In this document: positions 5,291-25,085 of the stretch, piece by piece
How positions within the stretch are numbered: the first letter of the stretch is position 1
How the letters are laid out: the number at the start of each line of letters is the position of its first letter
IMG/VR virus record: IMGVR_UViG_3300044535_001773
Span: 1-26,237 of that record
Reading direction: 5' to 3' (one strand)
DNA length: 26,237 nt
Origin: a virus
Translations under genes and position numbers: made by a program
Notes under the pieces: generated by a model
Databases searched by the model: none
What the model saw: the letters and a program-made list of their open reading frames with translations, nothing else
Told to the model about the DNA's origin: nothing

Positions 5291-5329
5291 AAGCTGTCCA
5301 GTCTTTTTAGGCTGGGCAGTTTTGTTTTT
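5291..5329 (+). terminator. Intrinsic terminator after the tail tube gene
   Basis: CTGTCCAG (5294-5301) pairs with CTGGGCAG (5312-5319) with one G-T wobble. Flanking A-T pairs extend the stem, the loop is ten bases, and the T-rich run TTTTGTTTTT follows. It closes the tube transcription unit just before the promoter of the long chaperone gene. Confidence 0.85.
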
Positions 5330-5333
5330 GCGG

Positions 5334-5339
5334 TATACT
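5334..5339 (+). promoter_or_regulatory. -10 box for a candidate leaderless transcript of the long chaperone
   Basis: TATACT lies six bases before the ATG at 5346, so transcription would begin at or next to the start codon. There is no Shine-Dalgarno sequence between the terminator and the ATG. The -35 position is occupied by the terminator stem. This arrangement is typical of leaderless genes in Actinobacteria. Confidence 0.55.
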
Positions 5340-5345
5340 TATAAG

Positions 5346-6047
5346 ATGGCAACAGAAGCATATGAATCAAAAAACATTACTCTTATAGATGGCACAGAGC
5401 TAACTTTGGTGCCACTTAAAATAAAATATTTAAGACAGTTTATGGAAGCTTTTGAGCTTGTAAAAACGGCAAATAATGATGAAGAAGCAATTATCTTTTT
5501 ATCAAATTGTGCAGCTATAGCAATGAAACAATATTATCCAAAAATAGCAAACATCTCTGACCTAGAAGATAGCATGGACCTACCAGGAATCTATGATGTT
5601 TTAGAGATTGCTGCGGGTATAAAGATTAATGAAAAATCTGAAAATCCAGTAAAAGAGCAGGCTGAGGATAGCGGCTCTTCTTGGGAAAAGCTAGATTTAG
5701 CAAAGCTTGAAGCTGAAATATTTTTGCTGGGGATTTGGAAAGATTACGAAGAGCTTGAGCTATCTTTATCTATGCCAGAGTTGATGATAACCCTAGAATC
5801 TAAGAGAGACCTTGATTATCAAGAAAAGAAATTCTTTGCTGCAATTCAAGGGGTAGACCTAGACAAGAATAGCGGACAGAGCTCTGGAAATAAGTGGGAA
5901 GAAATGAAGGCTAGGGTATTTAGTGGTGGAAAAGCGGCAAATTCAAATGACATTCTTGCCCTACAGGGAGTAAATGCACAGAAGGCTGGATTTGGAATTG
6001 GAATGGGGCTGGGGTATGAAGATCTTACAAAACCCCTTAAAAAATAG
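5346..6047 (+). CDS. Tail assembly chaperone, long form
   Basis: The 233-residue protein has the two-part build of a gpGT-type chaperone in one unbroken frame. Residues 1-97 form the N-terminal domain (ITLIDGTELTLVPLKIKYLR, then AAIAMKQYYPKI and a closing helix). Residues 100-233 form the T-like domain (LGIWKDYEELELSLSMPELM, KRDLDYQEKKFFAAIQGVD, MKARVFSGGKA, GFGIGMGLGYEDL). In most long-tailed phages this fusion arises only by programmed frameshifting from the short form; here no shift is needed. The N-terminal domain is about 40-45% identical by eye to the next gene. Lysine codons in that domain are 7 AAA to 1 AAG, the low-expression pattern. It should recruit the tape measure and tube subunits during tail assembly. 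The 5' end lies just after a -10 box with no ribosome binding site; an upstream in-frame TTG at 5322 is inside the terminator T-run and is rejected. Confidence 0.82.
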   Translation: MATEAYESKNITLIDGTELTLVPLKIKYLRQFMEAFELVKTANNDEEAIIFLSNCAAIAMKQYYPKIANISDLEDSMDLPGIYDVLEIAAGIKINEKSENPVKEQAEDSGSSWEKLDLAKLEAEIFLLGIWKDYEELELSLSMPELMITLESKRDLDYQEKKFFAAIQGVDLDKNSGQSSGNKWEEMKARVFSGGKAANSNDILALQGVNAQKAGFGIGMGLGYEDLTKPLKK

Positions 6048-6055
6048 AGGTTTTT
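6029..6055 (+). terminator. Weak candidate attenuator hairpin at the end of the long chaperone gene
   Basis: AAAACCCC (6029-6036) can pair with GAGGTTTT (6047-6054) with one mismatch around a ten-base A-rich loop, and a short T-run continues to 6055. The stem is AT-rich and overlaps the coding end, so termination, if any, would be partial. It directly precedes the promoter at 6057. Confidence 0.3.
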
Positions 6056-6056
6056 A

Positions 6057-6065
6057 TGTTATAAT
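6057..6065 (+). promoter_or_regulatory. Extended -10 promoter for the short chaperone and tape measure genes
   Basis: TGTTATAAT is identical over nine bases to the sites at 1570 and 22335. No good -35 box is seen. Transcription would start near 6072, leaving a leader with GGAAGGA at 6083-6089 before the ATG at 6100. Confidence 0.7.
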
Positions 6066-6099
6066 AGGTAAAGCCTCATAGCGGAAGGACTAAAATAAT

Positions 6100-6423
6100 A
6101 TGAGTACAGAAGTATACGAAGAAAAGACAATTAAGCTAATTGACGGAACAGAAATTAAGGTTCGTCCCTTAAAGATTTCACTCCTCCGTCCTTTTATGAA
6201 GAAGTTTGAGGGTATTGCAGAAGTTGCAGAGGATAACGACAAGTCAATGAGTATTTTGATGGACTGTGTTCAAATCGCAATGAAGCAGTACAAGCCAGAA
6301 CTGGCTGAAGATTTAAAGACTTTAGAGGAGATTCTAGATCTTCCTACAGTCTATAAGATTGTTGAAGAAGCATCAGGCGTTAAGCTTTCAGAAGTTTCTC
6401 TTGGCGGTCTTAGCACTAATTAA
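6100..6423 (+). CDS. Tail assembly chaperone, short form (paralogue of the N-terminal domain of the long form)
   Basis: The 107-residue product matches the first domain of the preceding gene along its length: TE-YE-K-I-LIDGTE, PLKI--LR-FM--FE, IAMKQY-P and DLP--Y are shared, roughly 40-45% identity by eye. It lacks the second domain. It therefore fills the gpG role, the abundant short chaperone that coats the tape measure during tube assembly. It has its own promoter, and GGAAGGA ten bases before the ATG. All 12 lysine codons are AAG and both arginine codons are CGN, unlike the long form, which points to high expression. The frame ends in TAA 18 bases before the tape measure start, leaving no room for a frameshift extension. 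Calling it a gpG equivalent rests on the paralogy and gene order. Confidence 0.8.
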   Translation: MSTEVYEEKTIKLIDGTEIKVRPLKISLLRPFMKKFEGIAEVAEDNDKSMSILMDCVQIAMKQYKPELAEDLKTLEEILDLPTVYKIVEEASGVKLSEVSLGGLSTN

Positions 6424-6441: not shown

Positions 6442-9400
6442 ATGGCTGAAGATGCCAATGCCAGAATAAGAGTTGATATTGATACCGCTGCCGCATTGGC
6501 AAGTATTAAAAATCTTCAACGGCAGATTTCAGCCTTTCACACCAACATGGCTAAGGGTGGTGCAGCAGCAGCTGCAACATCCCTAAACCTACAGCAGGGC
6601 CTTCTTAATAGTATAAATAGAACTGGCCAATTCTCTGCAACTATAAAAAATGTAAAATCTACTACAGAATCTTTTACATCTGCACTTGAAAAAAATAAAC
6701 TCTCTATGCGAGAGTATTTTAGATATTCTGCAGCATCCACTAAGTCATTCGGAAGATTTTTTACTACTGAGTTTGACACAATAAATAAAGTAGCACGTGA
6801 ACGTGTAAAGGATCTTCAGACTCAATATATTAAAATGGGTCGTGATGCTAACGGTGCTATAAGGTCTATTGCTGTCAGGCCTCTAGCCTTAGACATGGAA
6901 AGTCTAAGTACTAAAACTCAGATAGCTGCTCAGAAGCAAGCTCTGCTAAATCAAATGCTAAAGCAGGGGTCTACAAACCTCCTAAACTTTGGTAAAAATA
7001 CCCAGTGGGCTGGACGTCAGCTTATGGTTGGTTTTACTATTCCACTTACAATGTTTGGAACAGTTGCTGTAAAAACATTTATGGAAATAGAAAAACAGGC
7101 AATTCGTTTTAAGCGTGTTTATGGTGAAATGTTTACCACCACAGAGCAAACAACAAAAGCTTTAAATGAAATTAAGAATTTAGCTGCAGAGTTTACAAAA
7201 TACGGAGTTGCAGTATCCAAGACCATGGAGCTTGCAGCAGACATAGCTGCTACTGGTAAGATGGGTGCTGAGCTAACCGCACAGGTTGCACAGGCAACTC
7301 GTCTAGCCGTACTTGGTGGGGTAGAGCAGGCAGAGGCATTAAAAGCAACAATATCTTTAACAGACGCTTTTGGAGTTTCTGCAGAAGAGCTAGCAGGAAA
7401 AATAAACTTCTTAAACGCTGTTGAAAACCAAACTGTAACCTCTATTGAAGACTTAACAATCGCAATTCCAAAAGCTGGACCAGTTGTTCAACAATTAGGT
7501 GGAGATGTTCAAGACCTAACATTCTTCTTAACAGCAATGCGTGAGGGTGGTATTAATGCATCAGAAGGTGCTAACGCCCTAAAGTCTGGTCTTGCAGCTC
7601 TAATTAATCCAACTGGAAGAGCTTCAGAAATGCTTCAAGGTTTTGGTATTAATATCAAAGGCATTGTAGATGCAAATAGAGGAAATGTTAAGGGCATTGT
7701 AATAGACTTTGCTAAAGCTTTAGATACCTTAGACCCACTAAATCGTGCACAAGCAATTGAACAGCTATTTGGTAAGTTCCAGTTTGCACGTCTATCTACA
7801 TTGTTCCAAAACGTTATCAAAGAGGGTAATCAGGCTAGTCGTGTTCTAAAGCTAACAAATTCAACAACAGAAGAGCTTGCAGTTCTTGCTGAACGAGAGT
7901 TGAAAAAAGTTGAAGACTCTCCAATGTTTAAATTTCAAAAAGCTATTGAAGATATTAAGGTTACTCTTGTTCCTCTTGGAGAAGCATTCTTAAAGGCTGT
8001 AACTCCAGTTCTAGAATTTGGAACAAAGATTCTTGAAAAATTTAATGAGCTTGACGCAGGAGCTAAAAGCTTTGTAGTTGGTCTAACCGCTGTGGCTGGA
8101 GTTATTGGTCCAGTATTTCTTATGGGTTTTGGTCTTATAGCTAACGGTGTTGCAAACGTCATCAAGATGTTTACATTCTTTAAAACAGCAATAAATAAAA
8201 CTGGTACAGCTAGTACAGAGCTAGGAATGCAAACTGATTACATGACACAGCAGCAGCTAGAAGCATCTGCAGTTGCCGCATCTTTAAATCAGATTCATCA
8301 AAAACTAACACAAACTTTTACTTCTGAAGCTGCAGCAATTAACAACCTGTCTATTGCTTATAGAAAAGCTTTAGCTGCTCAAAACGGCATGTCTGGAGGA
8401 GCAGTCGCAAGAACAAGGCCTCCAAAGAAATTTGCCTCTGGAGTAATGTCTGTTCCTGGACCTAAGGGGGCTGGCGATGTTGTTCCAGCAATGCTTTCTC
8501 CAGGCGAAGCGGTAATTCCTGCAAAGCAAGCACAAAAGTATGCTCCATTTATTAAAGACATGATTTCTGGAAATGTTCCAGGATTTAGAAATGGTGTTTT
8601 CTTAGGAATGCCAAAGTCTTCAAAATCTGTTACAAAATCTCGCTCTGCAGCAGATGAAATCTATGAGCTATTTAAAAAGAGCAGTTATGTAAATACTCCT
8701 CCAACAGTATACGGTCATCAGATAAGCCCAACCTCTGGACACAGCTTCCCAATTTTTGGACTAGGCGGGGTATATCAAAAGGGCAACAAGCAAGTATTCG
8801 TAAAACCAGTAATGGATGAAAAGGCAGCCCTTGCAGAAATTAGAGCAACTACAATTGCTAGACAGGCTCATGGACTAAAATCTCCAAACCAAAGAGTTGT
8901 TGTTATTAAAGATCCAATGGATGTTAAGAGACAAAGAAAATTCTTGGCACTAGAGTCAGACCTAGACCCTACCTTTATTAATAATCAGCCTTTGGGCGTG
9001 TTCAATGAAGAGCAATACTTTAAGCAGCTTACAGCATCCCTTCTTCGTGGAGATAAAGACCTATCTGCATCCAACGTATACAAGGATGTTTTGGCAGATG
9101 TTGGTCCAGCAGGTGTATTTGACAGAGCATCTGGATTAAGAGATTATTCAAAGAATATTGCTTCTATGGAAGAGCAAGCACTTATAAATCTTCTTGGAGT
9201 TAAGGGTGGAGCAAAACGTGCGTTTGCAGAGTCAACACTAAACTTGATGGATAGACTTACACCACAGCAATATCACCAAAAAATGATTGGGGAAATCCAA
9301 AGAGTTCTTCCAAAGCTAAAGCAGACCATTGCATCATTTAAGCTAACAAATCCAACTGACGTTGGAATGTATGATGACATGGTTAGAAGGCTTGAGGCTG

Positions 9401-12400
9401 GATTAAATGTTGATTGGAGTAAGTTCCACAGCATTCACTCAGCTGTAAAGATTCCAAAACCAAAAGCTCCAAAGGTTGAAGGTTATAAAAAGGGAGTTGT
9501 CTCTGTACCTGGACCTAAGGGTGCTGGCGATATAATGCCTGCTATGCTTTCTCCAGGGGAAGCAGTCATCCCAAGAAAGATAGCCAAGAAGTACGCTCCA
9601 CTAATTAGCGGAATGATTGCAGACAACATTCCTGGCTTTGAAGAGGGTAAGGGATACAAGTATGATCCATTAGAAAAAACTGTAGAGACACATTTACAAG
9701 AGCCATCTACAGTTATTAGAGGAACTCCTGGATATAACCCTGAGTTAGCAGAAAAACTTGCTGCTAGTACCCCAGTTAGACAAATGGATATAGAAGGCCA
9801 AGCTCGTGTATCTGCATATGGAGACTTATTTGCAAATCTTCCTAGGTCTCTTAATGAAAATCTAAAAAGAGATGCTGGAGTTGCTATTGAAGAATTTGAA
9901 AAAGCTTGGGAGGGAACCTCTAATAAGTTTACAAAAACTCTTAAAAAGGGTTACAAAGATTTGGGAATGGCCTTTGATCCAAAAAATCCAATTATTGCGT
10001 CTGAAATTGCAGATATGGAAAAGAGCATTAAGAATAATGTCAGAAAACTTGCACAAAAAAATGGCGGAATTGTTAATGACACAATTGTTTCGCAAGCTAC
10101 GGCTCAAGCAGTCCAAACTGGGGCTTCTCGTGGAAGCAGTGTTGCAAAAGCTCTTCGTAGCAGGGCAAATTCCTTAAGAGAATATAGAACAAATTATACA
10201 GCAGAAGAGCTACGTGGTGGAGTTAAGTCTGGAAAGTTTAAGATTGAAAACGCCAAAGGCGGCGGAGGAAAGATTGTAGATCCAAAGTCAGGAATGACAA
10301 TCGGAAGAGTTGACAGCAGAGTTGGAAAAACCAGACAACAACAAATGCAAACATTTAATTCTCTATCTGGAGATGAAAGAAATGCATATGTTGACCAGAT
10401 GGGGTTGAGGTCAGATTCAAAAAAGACTACTTATAAGGGGGGCCAAGCTCAGGCTCAGGCAAAAGTAGTAGAAGTTGCTAAACAGCAAAGACTAGCAGCT
10501 GCGTCTAACCAAGCTCTTTATGGAACAACAGAATTTAATCCACAAATGCGTCAAGAAAGAAAAAGACAAGAAGCTGCAGCTAAAGCCGCTAATGCTCAAG
10601 CAGCTAGAGAAAGAAAACTTCTTGCAACGCAAAAAACTGCTACTGTACAAGCTCAGAAACAAGCTGCAGCAAGCCCTCAGGCGGCCACTACAACGCCTGG
10701 ACCACGAAGGCCTGGAATGGGGATGGGCGGAATGGCTATGGTCGCTAGCGGGGCCCTAATGGCTGGTTCTATGGCTCCAGGAAGTGTAGGAGAAATATCT
10801 CAGCAACTAATGATGCCTGCAATGTTAGCATCTATGATTTTGCCGATGGCAGGAGCTTTTGCTCCAGTAATTGCAGGCCTTGGAGCTTTGGCCGCTGGAG
10901 CTTGGGCACTAAAGAATGCTTTTGACTCAGCTGAAAAGTCTGCAAGAGAAAATGCATTAGCAACTGGCTCAAGTACTGATGCAATTAAAAACTTTGCAGA
11001 ATTTGCTGGCACAGCTTCTGCTGGCGAAATTATGGATAAGAAAAGAAGTGGGGCACTAGAACAGTTTGGTATTCAGTCAGGAAAAGAATCTTTTGGAAAT
11101 CTATTCTTGCAGAGTGAAGGAGCAAAGCCACTTCTTGAAGGCCTAAAGGCTTCTATTGCATCTGGAGCAACTAAAGAAAGTATGGTAGCTGGCACAAAGA
11201 ACCAGTTAGCAACAGCAGTAGCTAGCGGAGCTTTAACTAGAGATGAAGCTGCATCAATTGCAGGAAGTCTTGGAGAAGCTATTGGAGATAGAAGCTTTGG
11301 AATAAAGGTTGTTGGAGAGCTAAATCAACTTATTGGAATTGATGGAAGAAACCTTCTTGAAAATCCAATTGATCTCCGTGTAAGGCTAGTAGAAGAAACA
11401 AACAGCAAGCTACAGGGTATGGCACAAAGCTCAGCAATACCTAACGCACAAGGACAAGTCTTAGGAGGAGGAGCTCTTGCTGCTGCAGGCGGTGCCATTG
11501 GAGCAAATCTTGGAAAAGCAGGCGGTGCTCTTGCGGGTGCCAAAGTTATATCAATGGTTGGAGCTTTGGCTAATGCAGGAAAAGTTGCTACTCTTGTTGC
11601 AAGAATTGGATCTTTTGGTGGACCAATAGGTGCTGTTGCTGGTGCTGTCGTTGGTGCAGCAACAGGAGCCGTCATGCTATACGATGGTATGAAAAAAGCT
11701 GGTGCTGCTGCTGGTGCTATGAATGCTCAAGGTATTATAGGTTTGCAACAAAATCAAGAAATGCTAGACTCTTTAGATCTAGAATATCAAAAACGAATTG
11801 CTATTGCAAAGTCAGCTGGAGACCTTGTTGAGGCAAATAGGCTTGCAAAAGAGCTAGAGCAGGGTAGAGGGGAACTTTTAACTGCATCTCAAAATACCAT
11901 GAAGATTCTTACTGAACAATATAACGCTGCGGGTCCAGACATTTTTGGCATGAATACTATGAGAACTTCTTTAGACACAGCCTTAAACTCTATGTATAAA
12001 GACAACCCTTTAATGCAGCAAGTTATGGCGGGATCTAAATCTGCTATTGAAGGATCGTCTGCAACTGGAGAGCAGCAATATAACCTAAAGCTTATGCTAG
12101 CTAGCGGCAATGTTGATCCAGGAACAATGGCAAACCTATTAGGTGTTTTTGGAAATGACCAAGAGACTATACAAAAAATTATTGACATTAGTCTAAAGCT
12201 AGGAACTGCAGATGCAGGAAGAGCATTTGCTTTGGCAGATTTGTTTAAAGATGAAGGCGTAAAAGCAGACTTTATTGCTAAAGTTCAGACAAAGACTGCA
12301 CCACAAGCTCAAAAACTTTTAACTATGTTTGAAACTGTGCAACAGTCTGGCGGAGTTCTAGACATGGAAATGGTCTTAACCGCATACATGGCAGATGAAA

Positions 12401-14799
12401 CTGCTGGAAATCAGCTTATTCAGGACCTAGAAGAATTTAAAGCAGCACAAGAAGCTGGACCAATAACAACAACTGTAATTAATCAAGTATTCGGCAAAGA
12501 TGCAATGGATGCTGTTATGAAAGATTGGGAGTATTTCAGCGGTCTAGATAAAGACATGCAGCTTACCTATATGACCCTAGTACAAACTGCTTTTGAAACA
12601 GTAGAAAATAATCCAGACGCCTACAATACTTGGGCCGCAGTTCAAAAAACAGCTGGTAAAGACTATTCTAAACCAGCCTACTTTGCTAGTGTTGGCAACC
12701 AGGGAACCGTAGCTAAAGCTCGTACAGATAGCATGACAAAAGAAACAGAAACACCATCTTCAGGTGGAGGAAGACAAGCTGATCCTCTAGACAATATTTT
12801 AAAGTCTCTTCAAAATGTAAGAAAAGCTTCCATCGATGCTTTGGGTGGGACAAAAGAATTATTTAGGCTATTTGAAAATGGAAAAAACATTTCAGCATTT
12901 AATGGAATTGAGAATCAGCTATTAGCCTTAACTTCTAACACTGACTTTGCAAACTTTATTTCTGGTCTGGACAAGCAAGAGCAAGACCTGTTCATTACTA
13001 TTAAGAAGGGCAATGTTGAATTAACCCAGAGGGGTCGCCTGCTAGAAAAAGCTTATCAGGCAAACAGTATTGGAAACTTTGTCTTGTCTCAGCAGAAACT
13101 AGTAATATCATCTAAAAATGAACTTACCGCTAGGAATCTTTTGATTGATGCTGGCTATAGCTATATAGAGGCTTCAGAGCTGGCTAGAGACGCAACCATT
13201 CGAGAAGCATATGCGGACGCAGCATCAATTAAAAATAAAAAGGACAGAGCAGAAGCTATTAGAAATCTTAATAAAGCTTTAAAAGAGGGGGCTGATGCCC
13301 AAAAGGCAAATCGTACTTTTGAAGAAATATTTGATGATGGATTTGGCAAAGCAATGGAAGCATTTGAGGCACAAGAGAAAAAGCTTACTTTAGAATTTGA
13401 TGTAAAAGTTAAAGCAGACAAGGAAATAATTGAGGCTGCACAAAATGAGATTGCAAAAATTCAATATCAAATTGATGACTACGAAGCAGATCTCAAGGGT
13501 GTTGAAGACCAAGAAACCAAAATTAATAAAACCTATGACGATAAGCTGGATGCTCTTGAAAAGGTTAAAAATGCAAATCAAAAAATTCTTGATCAAGAAA
13601 AAGGAAAGCTGTCAATTGCTGAGGCGATTACTCGTGGTGACCTATATGCTGCTGCTCAAGCAGCACAACAGGTTAGAGAAACATCAGCATCTGGTTATTT
13701 TGGAAGCCAGACTTCAGCTTTGCAGGCAGCAAGAGAAAGTGCTCTTGAGCAAGTTAGGTCAAAATCAGGATTATCAAGAATACAAATAGAAGAAAAAATT
13801 AAAGAACTTTCTAATCAAATATTTTCTATTGAAGAAACAAGATTAGAGCCTGCAGCTGAAAGAGTTAGACTTGCAGAGGTTGAGCTACAAAAAAGAATTG
13901 CTGAAATTACAGTTTTAGGAAATACAAAGGCTCAGTGGGAAGGTATTAAGAACGGGATTGATTTAGCTAAAGTAAACAGCGATGCTTATAAAAAGTCAAT
14001 AGAAGAAGCACTAGCTGTTGTAGAAAAGTTAAAGCTTGCCTGGGCTGGAGTAGGTCCTCCAAAGGATGAGCCCCTAGTAGTAGATGACAAAGATGAGAAG
14101 AATAATAAAGACGAAAAAGTCCAGAACAAGGGTATTATTACTGTAAAAGACCCAGTTGTTCAAGATCCAAAATTTACAAAAGCTCAAATTGAAGCTAAGG
14201 AAAGAGCTGTAGAACAAGCAAAAAAGAACCAAGCAACTGCTACAAATGTTAAAGCCTCTGTTGGAGCTCCAGCACTAAACGATCCTCTAGGCCTTAGTAA
14301 AATAATTCCTCCATCTATTATAAAGTCAGTAAATGACTTCGGTAAAAATGTTCAGAATACTGTTGTTAACGCTTTCAAGTCAATCTTGCCTAAGCCAGCT
14401 CCCGCTCCAGCCCCAAAGGCTGCACCTAAGCCATCTGGCCCAGCTCCTGGAAGAAGTGTAAGAAGCTATATGGCTGGTGGAGGAAAAGTTGGCTACTACC
14501 CAATGGGCGGTCTAATACCATATATGTCCGCTGGCGGCCCATTTAAAACTATTAATACAGACAGTGTTCCAGCAATGTTAACTCCTGGAGAGTTTGTGAT
14601 TCGTAGATCCGCTGTCGATAATTTTGGGGTAAAAAATTTAGAGTCTATTAATAAAAAAACATTTGATGGCAGTTCAGTGTATAATTATAACTTAAGCGTT
14701 AACGTTTCTTCTGTTTCAGATCCTAACGCTATTGCACAAACCGTAATGTCTCACATCCGCAAGGTCGAGTCTCAAAGAATAAGGAGCAACAAGTTCTAA
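6442..14799 (+). CDS. Tape measure protein, 2785 residues
   Basis: This protein sets tail length and is expelled during DNA delivery. AGAGGTG at 6428-6434 fits the ATG at 6442; an ATG at 6438 is out of frame and stops after three codons. Visible order: a helical N-terminus; a TP901-type tape measure core at about residues 190-450 (AELTAQVAQATRLAVLGG, AMREGGINASEGANALKSGL); a hydrophobic stretch at 544-584; a first VPGPKGAGD module (667-718); a kinase-like region (about 735-1008); a second module (1018-1069); charged helices; hydrophobic Gly/Ala-rich segments at about 1428-1497 and 1676-1755 that could cross a membrane; long helical regions; a coiled coil at about 2300-2535; a Pro/Ala linker near 2650-2675; and a final VPAMLTPGEFVI motif. 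At the usual 0.15 nm per residue the upper limit for tail length is near 400 nm, less if globular inserts do not count. The TAATG junction couples it to the next gene. Confidence 0.95.
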   Translation: MAEDANARIRVDIDTAAALASIKNLQRQISAFHTNMAKGGAAAAATSLNLQQGLLNSINRTGQFSATIKNVKSTTESFTSALEKNKLSMREYFRYSAASTKSFGRFFTTEFDTINKVARERVKDLQTQYIKMGRDANGAIRSIAVRPLALDMESLSTKTQIAAQKQALLNQMLKQGSTNLLNFGKNTQWAGRQLMVGFTIPLTMFGTVAVKTFMEIEKQAIRFKRVYGEMFTTTEQTTKALNEIKNLAAEFTKYGVAVSKTMELAADIAATGKMGAELTAQVAQATRLAVLGGVEQAEALKATISLTDAFGVSAEELAGKINFLNAVENQTVTSIEDLTIAIPKAGPVVQQLGGDVQDLTFFLTAMREGGINASEGANALKSGLAALINPTGRASEMLQGFGINIKGIVDANRGNVKGIVIDFAKALDTLDPLNRAQAIEQLFGKFQFARLSTLFQNVIKEGNQASRVLKLTNSTTEELAVLAERELKKVEDSPMFKFQKAIEDIKVTLVPLGEAFLKAVTPVLEFGTKILEKFNELDAGAKSFVVGLTAVAGVIGPVFLMGFGLIANGVANVIKMFTFFKTAINKTGTASTELGMQTDYMTQQQLEASAVAASLNQIHQKLTQTFTSEAAAINNLSIAYRKALAAQNGMSGGAVARTRPPKKFASGVMSVPGPKGAGDVVPAMLSPGEAVIPAKQAQKYAPFIKDMISGNVPGFRNGVFLGMPKSSKSVTKSRSAADEIYELFKKSSYVNTPPTVYGHQISPTSGHSFPIFGLGGVYQKGNKQVFVKPVMDEKAALAEIRATTIARQAHGLKSPNQRVVVIKDPMDVKRQRKFLALESDLDPTFINNQPLGVFNEEQYFKQLTASLLRGDKDLSASNVYKDVLADVGPAGVFDRASGLRDYSKNIASMEEQALINLLGVKGGAKRAFAESTLNLMDRLTPQQYHQKMIGEIQRVLPKLKQTIASFKLTNPTDVGMYDDMVRRLEAGLNVDWSKFHSIHSAVKIPKPKAPKVEGYKKGVVSVPGPKGAGDIMPAMLSPGEAVIPRKIAKKYAPLISGMIADNIPGFEEGKGYKYDPLEKTVETHLQEPSTVIRGTPGYNPELAEKLAASTPVRQMDIEGQARVSAYGDLFANLPRSLNENLKRDAGVAIEEFEKAWEGTSNKFTKTLKKGYKDLGMAFDPKNPIIASEIADMEKSIKNNVRKLAQKNGGIVNDTIVSQATAQAVQTGASRGSSVAKALRSRANSLREYRTNYTAEELRGGVKSGKFKIENAKGGGGKIVDPKSGMTIGRVDSRVGKTRQQQMQTFNSLSGDERNAYVDQMGLRSDSKKTTYKGGQAQAQAKVVEVAKQQRLAAASNQALYGTTEFNPQMRQERKRQEAAAKAANAQAARERKLLATQKTATVQAQKQAAASPQAATTTPGPRRPGMGMGGMAMVASGALMAGSMAPGSVGEISQQLMMPAMLASMILPMAGAFAPVIAGLGALAAGAWALKNAFDSAEKSARENALATGSSTDAIKNFAEFAGTASAGEIMDKKRSGALEQFGIQSGKESFGNLFLQSEGAKPLLEGLKASIASGATKESMVAGTKNQLATAVASGALTRDEAASIAGSLGEAIGDRSFGIKVVGELNQLIGIDGRNLLENPIDLRVRLVEETNSKLQGMAQSSAIPNAQGQVLGGGALAAAGGAIGANLGKAGGALAGAKVISMVGALANAGKVATLVARIGSFGGPIGAVAGAVVGAATGAVMLYDGMKKAGAAAGAMNAQGIIGLQQNQEMLDSLDLEYQKRIAIAKSAGDLVEANRLAKELEQGRGELLTASQNTMKILTEQYNAAGPDIFGMNTMRTSLDTALNSMYKDNPLMQQVMAGSKSAIEGSSATGEQQYNLKLMLASGNVDPGTMANLLGVFGNDQETIQKIIDISLKLGTADAGRAFALADLFKDEGVKADFIAKVQTKTAPQAQKLLTMFETVQQSGGVLDMEMVLTAYMADETAGNQLIQDLEEFKAAQEAGPITTTVINQVFGKDAMDAVMKDWEYFSGLDKDMQLTYMTLVQTAFETVENNPDAYNTWAAVQKTAGKDYSKPAYFASVGNQGTVAKARTDSMTKETETPSSGGGRQADPLDNILKSLQNVRKASIDALGGTKELFRLFENGKNISAFNGIENQLLALTSNTDFANFISGLDKQEQDLFITIKKGNVELTQRGRLLEKAYQANSIGNFVLSQQKLVISSKNELTARNLLIDAGYSYIEASELARDATIREAYADAASIKNKKDRAEAIRNLNKALKEGADAQKANRTFEEIFDDGFGKAMEAFEAQEKKLTLEFDVKVKADKEIIEAAQNEIAKIQYQIDDYEADLKGVEDQETKINKTYDDKLDALEKVKNANQKILDQEKGKLSIAEAITRGDLYAAAQAAQQVRETSASGYFGSQTSALQAARESALEQVRSKSGLSRIQIEEKIKELSNQIFSIEETRLEPAAERVRLAEVELQKRIAEITVLGNTKAQWEGIKNGIDLAKVNSDAYKKSIEEALAVVEKLKLAWAGVGPPKDEPLVVDDKDEKNNKDEKVQNKGIITVKDPVVQDPKFTKAQIEAKERAVEQAKKNQATATNVKASVGAPALNDPLGLSKIIPPSIIKSVNDFGKNVQNTVVNAFKSILPKPAPAPAPKAAPKPSGPAPGRSVRSYMAGGGKVGYYPMGGLIPYMSAGGPFKTINTDSVPAMLTPGEFVIRRSAVDNFGVKNLESINKKTFDGSSVYNYNLSVNVSSVSDPNAIAQTVMSHIRKVESQRIRSNKF
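8440..8595 (+). repeat. Tape measure module, copy 1 (VPGPKGAGD..PAMLSPGEAVIP)
   Basis: Residues 667-718 match residues 1018-1069 closely, with VPGPKGAGD, PAMLSPGEAVIP and KYAP all kept. Over the 66 bases from 8455 and from 9508, 54 are identical by my count. The two copies are exactly 351 codons apart, so they are in frame with each other, and they bracket the kinase-like region. Confidence 0.88.
8644..9465 (+). other. Kinase-fold-like domain inside the tape measure protein
   Basis: Residues about 735-1008 show motifs in the order and spacing of a protein-kinase-type fold. There is a glycine-rich beta hairpin ending in a lysine (LGGVYQKGNKQVFVKP, Lys788), a helix with a glutamate 11 residues later (Glu799, ALAEIRATTIARQAHGL), a hydrophobic strand (RVVVI), and then GDKDLSASN (Asp873, Asn878) with the Asp-x4-Asn spacing of the RDLKPEN catalytic loop. 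Next comes GVFDRAS (Asp894), 16 residues after the Asn, where a metal-binding Asp would sit, followed by helices. HipA-like and PI3/PI4-kinase-like folds share these features. It is read by eye with no structure or database support, and could be an inactive relative. Boundaries are approximate. Confidence 0.5.
9493..9648 (+). repeat. Tape measure module, copy 2
   Basis: Residues 1018-1069 repeat the module of residues 667-718 (VPGPKGAGDIMPAMLSPGEA, then KKYAPLISGMIADNIPGF). It follows directly after the kinase-like region and marks its C-terminal border. Confidence 0.88.
14566..14601 (+). repeat. Third, divergent copy of the PAML-PGE motif near the tape measure C-terminus
   Basis: Residues 2709-2720 read VPAMLTPGEFVI, related to the PAMLSPGEAVI core of the two internal modules but without VPGPKGAGD. 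This form is common near the C-terminus of actinophage tape measure proteins, so the internal copies probably derive from the same module. Confidence 0.6.
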
Positions 14800-23564: not shown

Positions 23565-23872
23565 TGGCAGACCGCAAAGACCGAATGGCTTTGCTAAGCA
23601 GATACAGTAAGTTACACAAAATAAAGTATCAAGAAAAGCCAATAGTTAATTTAAATGTAGAGCAATGGGCTGCTGATGCCCTCATTGAGTCGTTTGGCTT
23701 AGATGTTTGCTACGACATGCTACAATATTATTTTGATGTTAGCCCAAGCCCAAGCTGGAAATATTTTGCAAATTATGCAGACAATATTATTAATTCCAGA
23801 GAGCAAGTGGTTCAAGATTTAAGAGAACGAGCTGAAAGACGACAGAAAGCAAAAGAGTGGTTAAGTGAATAA
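23564..23872 (+). CDS. Small helical protein coupled to the helicase gene; possible helicase loader
   Basis: The 102-residue product begins in a TAATG junction and its end overlaps the helicase start by eight bases, so the two should be made together. It is largely helical, with EQWAADALIESFGLDVCYDM, a motif SPSPSWKYFANYADNIINS, and a very basic C-terminal helix (LRERAERRQKAKEWL). Small proteins encoded directly upstream of phage DnaB-type helicases often load or regulate them, which makes this a candidate loader or adaptor. No loader-type ATP-binding motif is present, so it would not be a DnaC-type AAA+ loader. Confidence 0.68.
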   Translation: MADRKDRMALLSRYSKLHKIKYQEKPIVNLNVEQWAADALIESFGLDVCYDMLQYYFDVSPSPSWKYFANYADNIINSREQVVQDLRERAERRQKAKEWLSE

Positions 23873-25085
23873 TACAGAGGCTAGGCTAATATCTGCAGTG
23901 CTGCAAGATAAGCAAGTGCACGTATTGCTACAGGCAAATGTAGAAAACATTTTGCGTACACACAACGACGTCTGGCAGTTTATTCGTAAATACGCTGAAG
24001 CTAATGGAACCGTACCGCCAACAAGTTTAGTCGTAGAAAAGTTTAGGGATTTTTCTCTTGTAGATAATGTAGGTGCAACAAAGCATCACTTAGAGGAATT
24101 GCAAGGGCAGTATTTAAATGACAGTCTAAAAGAAATCTTAATGACTACAGCCTCTGATGTTCAAAGTGGCAAGGGTGCAGAGGCACTAGAAAACATAATC
24201 ACAAAAACGTCAGAGCTTAAGAAAAACACTGCAGTAATTAGAGACATCGATGTTACAGATATTGATTCAGCAGTTGCATATTTTGAGAATGTTCAACGCC
24301 AAAAAGATTTAGGAATGCTAGGTATAAAAACTGGTCTGCCAGGTTTTGACAACTATCTCCCCTCTGGGATTATGCCAGGACAGCTTGGGGTATTCCTTGC
24401 CTATCCTGGCATTGGTAAGTCTTGGCTATCTCTATACTTTGCAGTACAGGCTTGGAAGCAGGGCAAGTCCCCTATGGTTATTAGCTTAGAAATGTCAGAA
24501 ACAGAGGTTCGTAATCGTGTGTTTACAATTATGGGCGAGGGCCTTTGGTCCCATCGAAAGATTAGTAATGGTGAGATTGATATTGAGGATCTAAAGCGTT
24601 GGCATAAATCTAACGTACAGGGCAAGCCAGAGTTTCATATTATCTCCAATGATACTGGTGGAGAAATTACACCATCTGTTTTACGTGGAAAGATTGATCA
24701 GTATAAGCCAGACTTTGTTATTGTAGATTACTTGCAGCTAATGAGCCCAAACCAAAAGTCAGACAACGAAACTGTAAGAATGAAGAATCTGTCTCGTGAA
24801 CTAAAGCTAATGGCTATTGGAGAAGAGGTTCCGATTATGGCTATTTCTTCTGCCACACCAGATGATGTTACAAAGCTGGATACTGTTCCTACTCTAGGTC
24901 AGACAGCTTGGTCACGTCAGATAGCTTATGATGCTGACTGGGTTCTTGCAATGGGTAGGGCTGCTAATAGCGATATCCTAGAATGCGTATTTAGAAAAAA
25001 CCGTAATGGGTTTATGGGGGATTTCCTTGTGCAAGCTGATTTTGACAAGGGATGGTACAAATATAAAGATTATGAAGATAAGTAG
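23865..25085 (+). CDS. Replicative DNA helicase, DnaB type
   Basis: This 406-residue protein should be the hexameric helicase that unwinds DNA at the phage fork. Residues 1-110 are the helical N-terminal domain that contacts primase. Residues 150-406 are the RecA-type motor: Walker A AYPGIGKS (179-186), the ISLEMS motif with the catalytic Glu209, Walker B VIVDYLQLM (285-293) with Gln291, and the arginine-finger region FRKNRNGF (376-383). The GTG start at 23865 overlaps the previous gene by eight bases and gives the expected DnaB-type N-terminus (NNTEARLISAVL). Length is slightly below cellular DnaB (about 450-470). A primase follows one gene later, completing a helicase-primase pair. Confidence 0.93.
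   Translation: MNNTEARLISAVLQDKQVHVLLQANVENILRTHNDVWQFIRKYAEANGTVPPTSLVVEKFRDFSLVDNVGATKHHLEELQGQYLNDSLKEILMTTASDVQSGKGAEALENIITKTSELKKNTAVIRDIDVTDIDSAVAYFENVQRQKDLGMLGIKTGLPGFDNYLPSGIMPGQLGVFLAYPGIGKSWLSLYFAVQAWKQGKSPMVISLEMSETEVRNRVFTIMGEGLWSHRKISNGEIDIEDLKRWHKSNVQGKPEFHIISNDTGGEITPSVLRGKIDQYKPDFVIVDYLQLMSPNQKSDNETVRMKNLSRELKLMAIGEEVPIMAISSATPDDVTKLDTVPTLGQTAWSRQIAYDADWVLAMGRAANSDILECVFRKNRNGFMGDFLVQADFDKGWYKYKDYEDK

Follow-up and report, generated by a model that had tools for sequence, protein, structure and literature searches.

What would a protein-kinase-like domain do inside the tape measure protein of a phage tail? The question is raised by the IMG/VR virus record IMGVR_UViG_3300044535_001773, of which the whole stretch of 26,237 bases (positions 1 to 26,237, called the window below) was analysed, and in particular by residues 735-1008 of its tape measure protein, which an earlier note on this DNA had singled out as kinase-like and which do correspond to positions 8644-9465. 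The answer favored here, with a probability of roughly 0.6, is that the tape measure protein holds a kinase-fold enzyme domain in an exchangeable slot and delivers it as a host-modifying effector.

Predicted fold and active site of the domain

An AlphaFold2 model of the domain, built from 43 aligned homologues, is confident (pLDDT 86.2, pTM 0.86) and arranges its elements in kinase order: a strand, a beta hairpin with K788 in a strand, the next helix with E799, two strands, a helix, the catalytic loop, a short hairpin, and lastly a C-terminal lobe of helices. The predicted folded core spans residues about 727-1001, and the domain overall about 727-1008. The predicted structure is neither all-helical nor otherwise unlike a kinase, and its matches are to kinase folds. 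In a Foldseek search of the PDB, HipA takes the top rank (E = 8.5e-3), and kinases make up the 50 matches listed. With VIA-align, the closest structure is the spore-coat kinase CotH of Bacillus (PDB 5jd9/5jda; Z 11.5 over 218 aligned residues at 4.1 Å), followed by CtkA (9.8), PI4KIIalpha (9.1), HipA (8.7), and Fam20C (8.3); every one of the 22 PDB chains that reach Z >= 8, LepB included, has a kinase fold. Resemblance to CotH is confined to structure, at 9-10% identity, and CotH is a stand-alone spore protein, whereas the domain is part of a phage tail protein. HipA and CtkA likewise have the fold in common with the domain, which differs from HipA in a much shorter segment between the asparagine and the metal-binding aspartate and in being embedded in a tape measure.

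Because the Foldseek E-values are modest, the fold assignment rests on the consistent list of structures, the confidence of the model, and the conservation of the motifs taken together, and on these grounds a protein-kinase-like, two-lobed fold is predicted with high confidence, as the earlier note had proposed. It is very improbable that there is no kinase fold and that the motifs coincide by accident in an ordinary tape measure segment: such an accident would agree with the weak E-values and with searches of Pfam, PHROGs, NCBIfam, and PDB sequences that yield no kinase, but it is opposed by the model confidence, the all-kinase structure list, the motif conservation, and the register with HipA described below.

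Conservation was followed in 73 non-redundant homologues sharing less than 90% mutual identity, the lowest pair standing at 30%. K788, D871, D873, L874, N878, D886, and G888 are invariant in all 73, the catalytic D-x4-N pair (D873 and N878) among them, and E799 is kept in 72. Upstream of Lys788, G766, S768, and G776 are equally invariant (73/73) and form a candidate nucleotide loop. The five kinase residues claimed earlier were correctly located (K788 at 8803, E799 at 8836, D873 at 9058, N878 at 9073, and D894 at 9121), and the first four hold up; D894, present in just 14 of the 73 homologues, was rejected as a metal ligand, and D886 takes its place as the DFG equivalent. A short beta hairpin lies between N878 and the D-x-G (N878-VY-KD-VLA-D886-V-G888), and the kinase order of asparagine, beta7, beta8, and DFG is the order seen from N878 to G888. 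The domain and its sites are as follows.

8599..9501, + strand: kinase-fold domain as searched, residues 720-1020 (AlphaFold2 model, fold search, homologues)
8737..8769, + strand: candidate nucleotide-binding loop G766-H-S768-F-P...G-L-G-G776 (G766, S768, and G776 in 73/73; G766 aligns with HipA G153)
8803..8805, + strand: Lys788, equivalent of the beta3 lysine (VFVKP; 73/73; aligns with HipA K181)
8836..8838, + strand: Glu799, equivalent of the helix-C glutamate (72/73; aligns with HipA E203)
9052..9075, + strand: catalytic loop D871-K-D873-L-S-A-S-N878 (D871, D873, L874, and N878 in 73/73; D873/N878 align with HipA D309/N314)
9097..9105, + strand: D886-V-G888, DFG-equivalent metal-binding motif, instead of D894 (73/73; D886 aligns with HipA D332)

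Given that K788, D873, and N878 are invariant and E799 nearly so at pair identities down to 30%, and that dN/dS is 0.04-0.17 across the domain in pairs of close members, the motif set is beyond chance; the same dN/dS values place the domain under purifying selection. Lys788, Glu799, Asp873, Asn878, and Asp886-x-Gly888 make up a complete putative ATP/Mg2+ site, and the conserved residues make it likely that the domain is catalytically competent. A degenerate or structural kinase fold, that is, a pseudokinase with no catalytic role that helps in binding or in setting length, is quite unlikely. The missing family profile match, the short spacing between the catalytic loop and DxG, and the structural nature of tape measures are all compatible with it, but a pseudokinase would not need the complete Lys/Glu/Asp/Asn/Asp-x-Gly set, which stays invariant or nearly so down to 30% identity, and the domain's exchange partner, described below, is another enzyme fold. 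Also unlikely is a kinase fold with other chemistry, such as AMPylation, glutamylation, or the modification of lipids, glycans, or nucleotides, which would still be an injected effector. Kinase folds with different chemistries exist, SelO and SidJ among them, and the nearest structures here range over protein kinases, PI4-kinases, and CotH; the active-site set is nevertheless canonical, with no sign of altered chemistry, while nothing specific argues against this alternative.

As for family placement, the domain matches neither the Pfam HipA models nor the Pfam PI3_PI4_kinase profile, nor the Pfam CotH profile despite the top structural Z score of CotH. When the phage family was compared with the HipA profile by hhalign, the probability was 0.3% and the score was not significant, 46 of 300 column shuffles scoring as high, and for this reason only the register of the alignment was counted as evidence. 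In that register, G766, K788, E799, D873, N878, and D886 pair with HipA G153, K181, E203, D309, N314, and D332, six pairs within the 19 invariant columns of HipA, whereas column and block shuffles (400) reach at most 4. Assignment to the HipA, CotH, or PI-kinase family was rejected, as the profile tests failed.

An exchangeable slot in the tape measure

With residues 1-719 as the query, 80 relatives were drawn and 65 distinct long tape measures compared. The kinase-fold domain is present in 20 of these and a candidate domain with an ADP-ribosyltransferase fold in 11, and none has both. It is the closest relatives of the window's protein that carry the latter, just past residue ~720: over residues 1-700, L121/L122 are 89% identical to it and L123/L124 85%. 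L125/L126, at 83% identity, have neither domain. In L002/L003, by contrast, the kinase domain shares 84% identity with that of the window, compared with 68% for the N-terminal and ~35% for the C-terminal parts of the protein. Because the domain is thus more alike than its flanks, and because relatives at 89% and 85% identity bear other cargo, the sequences indicate that it is exchanged as a module among related actinobacteriophages. The domain with the ADP-ribosyltransferase fold was located as follows.

L121, 12137-12949: ADP-ribosyltransferase-fold domain
L123, 12155-13117: ADP-ribosyltransferase-fold domain
Also in L127, L132, L135, L146, L147, L148, and L134 (in L134 near residue 2360, unlike the others)

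DUF3626 is matched by 4 of 9 members of this domain (best 3e-6). Its model has a mean pLDDT of 64.5, with a core above 80, and resembles SopF (Foldseek E = 3e-5, probability 1.00, Z 11.1), an established ADP-ribosyltransferase (PMC10333799), as well as DarT (Z 11.0). The invariant R (in RPxYG), YG, D, and E fit that fold. Other slot contents (L125, L126, L136, L145, L149, L157, L185, and L199; residues ~740-1190) have no Pfam match; in L145 and L149, H-containing stretches that look alike, SHRVDLTG and AHVIELNN, may mark another enzyme family.

A repeat of ~52 residues (VPGPKGAGD..PAMLSPGEAVIP...PGF) stands on both sides of the kinase-fold domain, its two copies recognized by pairwise alignment with each other and by motif positions.

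8440..8595, + strand: flanking repeat 1, residues 667-718, GVMSVPGPKGAGDVVPAMLSPGEAVIP...NVPGFRNG
9493..9648, + strand: flanking repeat 2, residues 1018-1069, GVVSVPGPKGAGDIMPAMLSPGEAVIP...NIPGFEEG

TPGEFVIR, a motif related to the repeat, lies near the C-terminus of the tape measure. The repeat may be where recombination takes place, or it may serve in processing or binding. The slot follows directly on the conserved N-terminal region of the tape measure, and VPGPKGAGD..SPGEAVIP repeats bracket it in the window and in many relatives. There is about an even chance that the tape measures of these actinobacteriophages form a modular effector platform, the slot taking interchangeable enzymes that would enter the host before or with the DNA, with the kinase fold, the SopF/DarT-like ADP-ribosyltransferase fold, and others as cargo.

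Relatives, carrier, and probable host

Scans of viral contigs retrieved 17, then 61, and then at least 298 relatives of the domain, which is single-copy in each relative fetched and sits within a long tape measure open reading frame (ORF) wherever the contig extends far enough. Searches of annotated phages and plasmids by tblastn, with the window's domain and two divergent members as queries, found no relatives and hence no isolate with the domain, and bacterial and archaeal genomes, scanned twice, yielded no cellular homologues. The domain is therefore a divergent kinase-fold family known here, in the collections searched, only from uncultured phage tape measures. In the open-access literature, no description of a tape measure with a kinase, HipA, or CotH domain was found.

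The carrier is recognized as a tape measure by PhageMin_Tail (PF10145) and by ten PHROGs tape measure families.

6442..14799, + strand: tape measure protein ORF, 2785 aa, carrying the domain (PF10145, E = 7.3e-24; PHROGs, best 7e-101)
7189..7773, + strand: PhageMin_Tail (PF10145) core, residues 250-444 (Pfam match)

Two small ORFs precede it and tail-tip-sized ORFs follow, an order also seen in phage LukeCage around its tape measure. Over residues 1 to ~690, identity to tape measures from Streptomyces phages, LukeCage and Tomas among them, is 28-32%, and the window's major capsid protein shares ~41% identity with its Streptomyces phage counterparts. A gene for WhiB is present in 13 of 20 contigs bearing the kinase-fold domain, and in the control set a WhiB search matched Corynebacterium alone. 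Since WhiB is limited to actinobacteria and their phages, its occurrence on these contigs indicates that the hosts are probably actinobacteria.

The window has a G+C content of 37.9% and no tRNA genes. At 5322-6423, the two adjoining ORFs upstream of the tape measure have similar N-termini (..ITLIDGTELTLVPLKI.. and ..IKLIDGTEIKVRPLKI..), a likeness that suggests duplicated tail assembly chaperones. A DnaB-like helicase ORF at 23865-25085, recognized by a Walker A-like motif (PGIGKS), follows a few kb past the tail genes, which places replication genes close behind them.

Proposed delivery and significance

Tape measures are trimers that line the tail and are thought to be expelled ahead of the DNA (PMC13033339). 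Judging by this carrier, the domain would be present in the virion and delivered to the host, and its injection as an effector is plausible. The domain would travel in the tail tube unfolded or extended, as part of the tape measure, be expelled with it at infection, and regain its fold once in the envelope or cytoplasm of the host. Its action there would be to attach phosphate, or a different group derived from a nucleotide, to a host target, a modification that may benefit the phage by disarming or redirecting the host ahead of phage gene expression. The idea of delivery gains support from the near-identical tape measures in which this position is taken by an ADP-ribosyltransferase-fold domain, and T4 Alt and the Streptomyces effector Tme, both described below, serve as precedents. 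For a slot that takes the folds of two types of protein-modifying enzyme, effector delivery fits better than a structural role.

Several observations weigh against this proposal. Sequence profiles place the domain in no known kinase family, and comparisons with Pfam, PHROGs, NCBIfam, and PDB sequences give no meaningful match. The spacing from N878 to D886 is 8 residues, shorter than in known kinases (13 in PKA and 18 in HipA). The tape measure holds the domain in its N-terminal third, which may be the last portion to exit the tail. The main mechanical objection is that the siphophage tail channel, ~35 Å wide, contains three tape measure chains (PMC13033339), which leaves no room for a folded kinase; in the virion the domain would have to be unfolded or extended. 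The same constraint favors the main rival explanation, in which the kinase-fold domain is active at assembly in the producing cell and acts, ahead of packaging, on its own tape measure or on tail, capsid, or chaperone proteins, modifying them: a folded kinase is too large for the ~35 Å tube (PMC13033339), and synthesis and assembly of the tape measure take place in the cytoplasm, with ATP at hand. However, close relatives lack the domain or have the ADP-ribosyltransferase-fold domain there, and a kinase fold is thus not generally needed for assembly, which leaves an assembly-time role with a small chance.

Among known systems, injected phage enzymes come from a few model phages and are mostly separate head proteins. 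Alt of T4, an ADP-ribosyltransferase, is one such head protein, injected with the DNA; like the domain proposed here, it is a virion-carried protein-modifying enzyme, the difference being that the predicted enzyme domain of the window lies within the tail tape measure. Enzyme domains inside tape measures are also familiar as peptidoglycan hydrolases, for example in mycobacteriophage TM4, whose target during entry is the cell wall, whereas a kinase fold needs ATP and therefore points to the cytoplasm. Tme, an endonuclease effector of the contractile injection system of Streptomyces davawensis, likewise joins an enzymatic effector domain to a tape-measure-related protein in actinobacteria; it differs in being a nuclease, C-terminal, and part of a contractile injection system, whereas the window's domain belongs to a phage tape measure (PMC11126660).

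If the effector proposal is true, tail length determination and effector delivery would be combined in one device, and part of the great size of tape measures (up to ~4,000 aa) would be explained. It would also open a direct route to the first host targets of the phages of abundant, hard-to-culture aquatic actinobacteria, and phage tails of this kind would offer a natural blueprint for delivering proteins.

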